Positions 2,378-3,038 of a stretch of DNA of 37,084 nucleotides are shown here, one piece after another. The stretch is from Chlorobiaceae bacterium (lineage in GTDB: Bacteria; Bacteroidota; Ignavibacteria; UBA10030; SZUA-254). Made by a program: the position numbers and the translations under genes. The stretch lies in NCBI GenBank assembly GCA_013824245.1, contig PNNN01000026.1, forward strand, positions 1-37,084. Direction: 5' to 3'. The notes below the pieces were generated by a model. That model saw only the letters and a list, made by a program, of their open reading frames with translations. It was not told the origin of the DNA and did not search any database. Each line of letters opens with the position of its first letter. Position 1 is the stretch's first letter.

Positions 2378-2518
2378 TTAGGTATATGTGAGATGTTAGA
2401 GTTTATCGTGAAAGATTATCGGTGTGACCGATATAATATTTTTTGAGTTTATCGCTCCAGAGGATATATGTTGAGTACATATTGCTTGTGACTCCCGATC
2501 TAGTTCTCGTGGGTGCTG

Positions 2519-2545
2519 TCCCGTTTCAAAGTAATTGAAACGGGA
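2519..2545. repeat. Hairpin element A1, ends TCCCGT/ACGGGA
   Basis: A perfect inverted repeat: TCCCGTTTCAA pairs with TTGAAACGGGA around a 5-base centre. It sits where the T-loop of tRNA-like copy A should be. It shares its six-base ends and the CGTTTC/GAAACG core with the hairpin at 2558-2588, and its ends with the one at 2797-2825. Confidence 0.75.
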
Positions 2546-2557
2546 AACCTGCGACTT

Positions 2558-2588
2558 TCCCGTCTCGTTTCGTTGAAACGTGACGGGA
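2558..2588. repeat. Hairpin element A2, ends TCCCGT/ACGGGA
   Basis: A near-perfect 31-base palindrome: TCCCGTC pairs with GACGGGA in one reading direction, followed inward by CGTTTC/GAAACG with one mismatch between. It replaces the 17-base anticodon arm of tRNA-like copy A exactly at the arm boundaries (GAGCG before, AGTCGCAGG after, minus strand). Confidence 0.7.
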
Positions 2589-2656
2589 CGCTCTGAACCA
2601 ACTGAGCTAAACACCAATTTGATCCACGGGTGAAACGATCGGTAATTAAATTGAAA

Positions 2657-2676
2657 ATCCCGCAGGAACGCGGGAT
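2657..2676 (-). terminator. Rho-independent terminator after tRNA-Val
   Basis: The minus strand reads ATCCCGC, six loop bases, GCGGGAT, then TTTCAATTT. It lies ten bases beyond the 3' end of tRNA-Val, the right place and orientation to end that transcript before the downstream tRNA-like copy. Confidence 0.7.
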
Positions 2677-2685
2677 CTTCGTTTG

Positions 2686-2760
2686 TGGGTGCTGCGGGGA
2701 TCGAACCTGCGACCTCCGCCTTGTAAGGGCGGCGCTCTGAACCAGCTGAGCTAAGCACCC
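2686..2760 (-). tRNA. tRNA-Val (anticodon TAC)
   Basis: The minus strand folds as a full cloverleaf: acceptor GGGTGCT/AGCACCC, D-arm GCTC/GAGC, anticodon stem CCGCC/GGCGG with loop CTTACAA (anticodon TAC, reading GUA-type valine codons), T-loop TTCGATC and discriminator A. CCA is not encoded. One oddity is an A.C mismatch at the middle pair of the T-stem (GCAGG/CCCGC). A terminator-like hairpin follows at 2657-2676. Confidence 0.92.
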
Positions 2761-2782
2761 GATAATATTTTGTGAACACTGC

Positions 2783-2853
2783 AAAACCTGCGACCTTCCC
2801 GTCTCGTTCGTGGAACGATACGGGACGCTCTGAACCAGCTGAGCTAAGCGTCC
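2783..2853 (-). pseudogene. tRNA-Val-like copy B, hairpin in place of anticodon arm, 3' end lost
   Basis: The minus strand begins GGACGCTTAGCTCAGCTGG and continues GTTCAGAGCG, the tRNA-Val 5' half with small changes in the acceptor. A 29-base hairpin (2797-2825, ends TCCCGT/ACGGGA) then replaces the anticodon arm. Next comes AGGTCGCAGGTTTTGC, the start of a T-arm, after which similarity stops; no sequence able to pair with the GGACGCT acceptor strand follows. It is a broken tRNA copy that lies 22 bases upstream (in minus orientation) of the intact tRNA-Val. Confidence 0.6.
2797..2825. repeat. Hairpin element B1, ends TCCCGT/ACGGGA
   Basis: Imperfect palindrome with outer TCCCGT/ACGGGA and inner CGTTC/GAACG arms around a 3-base centre. 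It occupies the anticodon-arm position of tRNA-like copy B, as element A2 does in copy A. Confidence 0.7.
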
Positions 2854-2875
2854 AATGTTTGTACTTTTTGCCTTC

Positions 2876-2903
2876 CGTTTCGTTATCTGCCGATAACGAA
2901 ACG
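2876..2903. repeat. Perfect 12-bp hairpin with CGTTTCGTTATC arms
   Basis: CGTTTCGTTATC and GATAACGAAACG pair perfectly around the four-base loop TGCC. It shares the CGTTTC/GAAACG core with element A2 and lies just upstream (minus orientation) of tRNA-like copy B. No U-run follows on either strand, so it is not an obvious terminator. Confidence 0.7.
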
Positions 2904-2966
2904 AGATTCTAAAAATTATATACAACTTAGTTACACTACGCTCACTAAGTTATGTCATTTTGGAAG

Positions 2967-3038
2967 AGCGGGAGACCGGGATCGAACCGGCGACGTTCAG
3001 CTTGGGAAGCTGACATTCTACCGCTGAATTACTCCCGC
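2967..3038 (-). tRNA. tRNA-Gly (anticodon CCC)
   Basis: Minus-strand cloverleaf: acceptor GCGGGAG/CTCCCGC, D-stem ATTC/GAAT, anticodon stem TCAGC/GCTGA with loop TTCCCAA (anticodon CCC, glycine), T-stem GCCGG/CCGGT with loop TTCGATC, discriminator T. CCA is not encoded. The gene is bracketed by an 11-bp inverted repeat, TGTCATTTTGG at about 2953-2963 and CCAAAATGACA at about 3078-3088. No clear promoter was identified. Confidence 0.95.

Follow-up and report, generated by a model that had tools for sequence, protein, structure and literature searches.

By analogy, the closest worked example of the mechanism that we propose here is the mobile ORF (mORF) of fungal mitochondria, known, e.g., from atp6, atp9, cox2 and nad3 of Glomus sp. 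and from atp6 of Allomyces, which brings along a spare C-terminus that makes the gene whole again, so that the native end comes to lie past the ORF (PMC3630166). Like the unit described here, mORFs combine an endonuclease ORF (GIY-YIG in atp9) with a spare gene end and are inserted in a conserved gene. They differ in that they occupy mitochondrial protein genes, encode mostly LAGLIDADG enzymes and duplicate the C-terminus only, whereas our units lie at bacterial tRNA genes, duplicate either half, encode an 80-aa nuclease and carry a hairpin that replaces an arm in the leftover half.

A further point of comparison is offered by T-even phages, whose free-standing GIY-YIG homing endonucleases (PMC13096335, PMC2988022) include SegB; the gene of this enzyme neighbours tRNA genes, and its activity favours tandem copies of the segment that holds them (PMC13096335). 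Both systems feature a free-standing GIY-YIG nuclease next to tRNAs, and tandem units occur here too (loci L117, L153 and L243); the phage enzymes differ in being phage-borne, and are not known to come with half-tRNA copies whose arms are exchanged for hairpins. Integrative elements with att sites at tRNA 3' ends likewise restore the gene with a duplicated 3' half, but the units studied here are tiny, have no integrase, duplicate 5' halves as well and show the hairpin swap. IS200/IS605 transposons and REP/RAYT are small elements with hairpins at their ends and a small nuclease gene, whose product is a HUH tyrosine transposase. They share with our units the end hairpins beside a small nuclease gene and differ in the enzyme, here a GIY-YIG nuclease, and in the target, here a tRNA gene; identity with IS200/IS605 was rejected, since the only ORF is GIY-YIG and not a HUH Y1 transposase. 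In the open-access literature, preprints and most subscription papers aside, our searches turned up no description of GIY-YIG units that are linked to tRNAs and have hairpins in place of arms, and a 2006 survey of GIY-YIG proteins mentions tRNA only three times, never for a location beside tRNAs. An element of this type does not seem to have been described so far; an earlier mention is possible.

The window, by which we mean the whole stretch of 37,084 nucleotides that was analysed, is contig C24 of the 3.23-Mb draft genome of the host (G000). Read along the minus strand, the locus comprises tRNA-Gly(ccc), copy B, tRNA-Val(tac), a terminator-like hairpin, copy A and a broken GIY-YIG ORF (Table 1). 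The original prediction, made from the letters of the window, had two degenerate tRNA-Val copies flanking an intact tRNA-Val on the same strand, both with the anticodon arm cleanly exchanged for a hairpin of 29-31 nt with TCCCGT/ACGGGA ends, and copy A with a third such hairpin of 27 nt in its T loop; we recovered every one of these elements in its place. The native anticodon arm, CCGCCCTTACAAGGCGG, is 17 nt long and is exactly what copies A and B lack, its position being taken by hairpins of 31 and 29 nt, respectively, and in the T arm of copy A 'CGATCCCCG' has been swapped for the third hairpin. As had also been proposed, the tRNA body is preserved on both sides, through GAGCG before the hairpin and from AGGTC (AAGTC in copy A) after it. 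The start of copy B at 2853 was placed correctly, but its end lies at 2773 rather than 2783, since the 3' acceptor strand AGTGTTC pairs with the 5' strand GGACGCT.

Table 1. Features of the tRNA-Val locus, in the order of the minus strand.
Feature	Position	Strand	Basis
tRNA-Gly(ccc), first gene in the order Gly - copy B - Val shared with relatives	2966..3038	-	tRNA calling, comparison with relatives
Long hairpin between tRNA-Gly and copy B	2873..2906	.	sequence, comparison with relatives
Copy B, full-length tRNA-Val-like, anticodon arm replaced, T arm shrunken	2773..2853	-	sequence, RNA fold, conserved in G006 and G002
Copy B hairpin TCCCGTATCGTTCCACGAACGAGACGGGA, anticodon-arm position, 29 nt	2797..2825	-	sequence, genome pattern scan
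Intact tRNA-Val(tac)	2685..2760	-	tRNA calling
Terminator-like hairpin 3' of tRNA-Val	2657..2676	-	sequence, inferred
Copy A, tRNA-Val-like, two arms replaced	2510..2615	-	sequence, RNA fold
Copy A hairpin TCCCGTCACGTTTCAACGAAACGAGACGGGA, anticodon-arm position, 31 nt	2558..2588	-	sequence, genome pattern scan
Copy A hairpin TCCCGTTTCAATTACTTTGAAACGGGA, T-arm position, 27 nt	2519..2545	-	sequence, genome pattern scan
Truncated GIY-YIG nuclease ORF MYSTYILWSDKLKKYYIGHTDNLSR*, begins 29 nt past copy A	2403..2480	-	Pfam, genome scan

The RNA fold of either copy has its acceptor stem paired and a D arm, and lies far below shuffled controls (z of -6.2 for copy A and -3.5 for copy B); Rfam reports no RNA family other than tRNA at the window. 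The pattern TCCCGTN{8,30}ACGGGA has 19 sites in the 3.23-Mb genome, whereas its reversed form, taken as a control, has two, and copies A and B contain three of these sites; the shared termini therefore exceed chance, as had been claimed for the three arms. A hairpin family independent of genes was nevertheless set aside, as most of the 19 sites lie outside tRNAs and a clear link emerged only with the GIY-YIG ORFs. We considered compensatory changes in the acceptor stem of copy B as a sign of selection and dropped this reading, because GGACGCT/AGCGTCC is a common tRNA-Val stem in relatives, so that it is the intact tRNA-Val of the window that deviates.

The original prediction overlooked the ORF fragment that follows copy A. 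It comprises 25 codons, corresponding to the first third of a GIY-YIG domain, and matches PF01541 in Pfam with an E-value of 1.7e-4 (22.2 bits against a cut-off of 22.6) and the nuclease in a genome scan with an E-value of 1.7e-6. The full-length protein from the relative G006 (JAGVIE010000006, 'Bacteroidetes bacterium DeMMO2_4') matches PF01541 at 1.7e-19, two proteins of the host genome score similarly, and in an alignment of five proteins the Tyr, Gly, Arg and Glu columns of the catalytic motif are invariant, which places them by catalytic domain in the GIY-YIG nuclease superfamily. We read the window ORF as having lost everything beyond its first 25 codons, and copy A with this fragment as a decayed unit.

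The named close genomes belong to Ignavibacteriales and other Bacteroidota. The order Gly - copy B - Val is shared with G006 (94% identity), a member of the same family, and with G002, which excludes a mis-assembly at the site, one of the circumstances that were to refute the original prediction. In G006, this order is followed 4 nt on by a complete GIY-YIG ORF of 81 aa, and 3' of it by a D-arm remnant, the hairpin TCCCGTCTCGTTCGGTAGAACGAGACGGGA and a tRNA-Val 3' half with a double hairpin in its T loop. Copy B is present in three genera, with a nearly unchanged 5' half and a covarying hairpin stem; its T arm is complete in G002 and shrunken in G000 and G006. In G001, the copies are gone except for a 5' scrap of copy A. 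The G006 version of the long hairpin between tRNA-Gly and copy B has TCCCG..CGGGA ends, though it lies outside any tRNA arm.

Hairpins of this kind also occupy tRNA copies elsewhere, so that the other refuting circumstance, their absence from such copies, does not hold either: a pattern search of 98 genomes of the order found GAGCG-hairpin-RGTC arms in about 20, including tRNA-Val and two tRNA-Ala genes, against 0 or 1 per genome for a control pattern. At the tRNA-Pro(cgg) locus, G000 carries a unit, while G010 and G002 have a single plain tRNA at the syntenic site; occupied and empty alleles thus both exist, but the flanks have diverged too far for a single clean insertion to be demonstrated. 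A comparison of contig C30 of G000 with C6 of G001 and C60 of G006 also shows the tRNA-Pro(cgg) gene inverted with respect to its neighbours, perhaps through recombination at the element.

With five nuclease proteins of this type as queries, themselves tRNA-linked, we obtained matches in 81 of the 98 genomes of the order. The typical ORF encodes about 80 aa and lies 0-200 nt from a tRNA, on the strand of that tRNA. In the host genome, six of eight GIY-YIG matches are within 205 nt of a same-strand tRNA (binomial ~5e-13), and the two without a tRNA, on C6 and C67, are the divergent ones. A set of named genomes, assembled via short conserved peptides, gave 80 loci from Bacteroidota, Ignavibacteriota, Cloacimonadota, Neomarinimicrobiota, Zixibacteria, candidate phyla and others, of which 62 have a same-strand tRNA within 300 nt (48 upstream and 14 downstream, with 2 antisense and 16 without a tRNA), fractions that describe this subfamily and not GIY-YIG proteins at large. 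The linked tRNAs include those for Ala, Asp, Pro, Ser, Lys, Met, Val, Arg, Leu, Gly and Asn, and occupied loci are known in cultured genera, e.g., Flavobacterium, Draconibacterium and Barnesiella.

Over all loci retrieved, a tRNA adjoins 116 ORFs, and in 78 of these cases half of that tRNA is repeated on the far side of the ORF, so that, as in mORFs, a duplicate of part of the target gene lies across the ORF from the intact gene; the other 38 show no clear second half, and some of their contigs end there. Two polarities occur, tRNA - ORF - 3' half and 5' half - ORF - tRNA. With L and R for the 5' and 3' tRNA halves, l' and r' for short copies of the other half and hp for the hairpin replacing an arm, the anatomy of a unit is L-R-ORF-l'-hp-R or the mirror L-hp-r'-ORF-L-R, over ~320-410 bp, and one complete tRNA stays beside it. 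The last 17 nt of the half-copies are 98% identical to the intact tRNA (44 of 51 perfectly so), and they are therefore not old pseudogenes but young, converted or needed. Comparing the two sides for a displaced native end, we found distal and proximal acceptor strands identical in 48 of 50 cases, with one case favouring each side, the halves being nearly always identical. The same sequence follows both halves in 21 of 51 cases, which indicates that some units are tandem amplifications or parts of a longer duplication and not single insertions; in the remainder the following sequences differ, as they would after a single insertion.

Tandem units are found at L117 and L153 and, in the complete chromosome of Bacteroidetes bacterium UKL13-3, as at least six GIY-YIG units of 410 bp after tRNA-Asn (L243:933-3240), in which the last ORF codons come from tRNA sequence. 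Units without an ORF occur at L089, L090, L095 and L111, and those at L089, L095 and L111 are tandem units of ~100-220 bp with a hairpin and a tRNA 3' half, resembling non-autonomous derivatives. In the units examined, GIY-YIG is the sole ORF and a tyrosine or serine recombinase is absent. A group I or other self-splicing intron was rejected, because the working tRNA is uninterrupted and Rfam finds tRNA alone in 20 loci.

The hairpin takes the place of exactly the 17-nt anticodon arm in 22 elements (Ala, Asp, Val, Arg, Gln, Leu, Lys and Met tRNAs) and of exactly 8 nt of the T arm in 12, mostly tRNA-Asp, by our own count. On either side of the ORF, the bases before it match the tRNA in question: GAGCG in general, GAGCA for Lys and Arg, and AAGGCA for Gln. 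Ends of the TCCCG..CGGGA type are present on 32 of 78 automatically chosen hairpins, while tRNA-Pro units have TGGCGCC..GGCGCCA hairpins and tRNA-Ser units TCAGCC..GGCTGA types. Among 48 distinct stems of the TCCCG type, pairs 1-5 are almost invariant, and pairs 6-8 vary yet stay paired (48/48, 39/41 and 25/29, against shuffled means of 23, 26 and 12); as the set was partly picked as palindromic, support free of this bias comes from those stems that were identified solely by their ends. In the phylogeny of the nuclease, which is poorly resolved and has 34 rows without a hairpin class, the hairpin class needs four changes (shuffled mean 14.5), compared with 35 for tRNA type and 21 for polarity. 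In the half-copies of tRNA-Ser at L141, L152, L154, L155 and L164, the T, anticodon and D loops hold a double hairpin in which TSAGCCnnnGGCTSA precedes TCCGCCnnnGGCGGA or a similar sequence.

We consider it probable that a small homing-type element, made of one GIY-YIG gene of ~80 codons and a spare half tRNA, has left copies A and B behind, a reading for which the GIY-YIG fragment, the complete unit of G006, the tRNA linkage, the half-copies and their near-identity to the intact tRNA, the exact replacement of arms, the tree, the covariation, the invariant catalytic residues and the empty tRNA-Pro sites together argue. The nuclease would cut a tRNA gene lacking the element, and repair from an occupied copy would install the ORF and the duplicated tRNA half, which would keep a working tRNA, so that the insertion would not be lethal to the host. 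The hairpin would mask the leftover half, leaving it neither a target nor a decoding tRNA, and may make it a poorer substrate for element-deleting recombination with the intact tRNA. Copy B we take, most plausibly, for a collapsed unit, with L joined to hp-R beside the working tRNA-Val. Mobility and cleavage, like the function of the hairpin, are inferred. The intact tRNA beside the element should remain a target, so that a masked half alone fails to explain self-protection; loss of homology alone does not account for the mask always being a hairpin; and a protein of ~80 aa is little beyond a catalytic domain, which leaves its sequence specificity unexplained.

For the role of the hairpin we favour masking, with recognition by the nuclease nearly as likely. 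The hairpin could be a recognition structure instead of a mask. The nuclease would then see a cruciform or hairpin of tRNA-like shape, extruded in the DNA or formed by the transcript, and the hairpin that stands for the anticodon arm at the element end might serve for docking or nicking, by analogy with the subterminal hairpins of IS200/IS605 transposases; we regard this as a serious possibility somewhat short of probable. It is consistent with a hairpin-for-hairpin swap that removes exactly 17 nt and respects the tRNA fold on both sides, with the retention on both sides of short stretches of the tRNA itself (GAGCG, which is GAGCA in Lys and Arg, and AGGTC), wherever the ORF lies, with a hairpin class that tracks nuclease clade over tRNA, and with covarying stem pairs. 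Yet co-inheritance of hairpin and ORF would yield the same clustering, template-switch repair of palindromes could also produce covariation, Pro and Ser elements carry other hairpins, and fold recognition by an 80-aa GIY-YIG domain is putative. More tentatively still, and with some doubt, one may think of a new class of minimal mobile element whose single-domain GIY-YIG nuclease recognises tRNA genes by fold and whose end hairpin substitutes for a tRNA arm; a single cassette might then move among about ten amino-acid tRNA types in several phyla, leaving one intact tRNA each time. Neither masking nor recognition alone accounts for the survival of the adjacent intact tRNA.

The original prediction offered two readings of the copies, small hairpin elements that target tRNA arms and tRNA-like RNAs that have lost decoding. 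Such hairpins do occupy anticodon and T arms in many genomes and tRNA types, as the former had it, but they do not occur alone, lying at the junction of a GIY-YIG ORF unit and a half tRNA, so that what associates with tRNAs is an element bearing a nuclease. That independent palindromic repeats (cf. Rickettsia palindromic elements) insert into redundant tRNA copies, with the GIY-YIG genes as bystanders, would fit the dispersed palindromes with the same core elsewhere in the host genome and the double hairpins in T and D loops of tRNA-Ser copies, which resemble intergenic repeats; we find it decidedly improbable, given hairpins that in many phyla mark where a GIY-YIG unit meets the half tRNA, replace an arm rather than interrupt it and follow nuclease clade. 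It is unlikely that the copies are functional tRNA-like RNAs kept as decoys, regulators or scaffolds. This reading is unneeded for copy A, whose T arm is broken by a hairpin; for copy B, the paired acceptor stem and D arm, seen in both folds, the nearly unchanged 5' half in three genera and the covarying stem speak for it, but its T arm has shrunk in G000 and G006, G001 has lost both copies save the 5' scrap, Rfam gives tRNA and no other family, and regions around copy B are also conserved between G000 and G006, making its conservation weak evidence. Attachment-site scars left by the tyrosine recombinases of integrative elements or prophages at tRNA 3' ends would account for duplicated 3' halves at element ends, and ordinary cases seem present at the tRNA-Val(cac) genes of G003 and G017 (L066-L068). 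We hold them to be a very remote explanation here, as the units, 320-410 bp long, contain a single GIY-YIG ORF, lack an integrase and duplicate 5' halves too, and an att site would not exchange an anticodon arm for a hairpin.

In Bacteroidota and other phyla, a homing-type element at tRNA genes would account for many mini GIY-YIG genes so far unexplained (annotated 'GIY-YIG nuclease family protein') and for unusual half-tRNAs in their vicinity, a possible source of confusion in tRNA annotation. If this reading is right, a homing-type parasite repeatedly settles at tRNA genes and spares the host by bringing half a tRNA along. The exchange of an anticodon arm for a hairpin poses the sharp question whether a GIY-YIG nuclease sees the sequence of a tRNA gene or its fold, one that the occupied loci in cultured genera open to experiment.

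An 81-aa query gave no match at an E-value of 1e-8 in phage and plasmid collections; one viral contig matches a strict hairpin pattern. Three sites in the host genome (L005, L009 and L010, on C6, C15 and C23) carry nested palindromes of the form TGTTCTCTCGATACA-TCCCG..CGGGA-TGTATCGAGAGAACA, a separate dispersed repeat that shares its core with the tRNA-arm hairpins. Finally, the residues past the catalytic Glu seem to track the target, with KSRKYIE accompanying many tRNAs and, apparently, KxRGxxRYL accompanying tRNA-Pro and LKSGxGRxWL tRNA-Ser.
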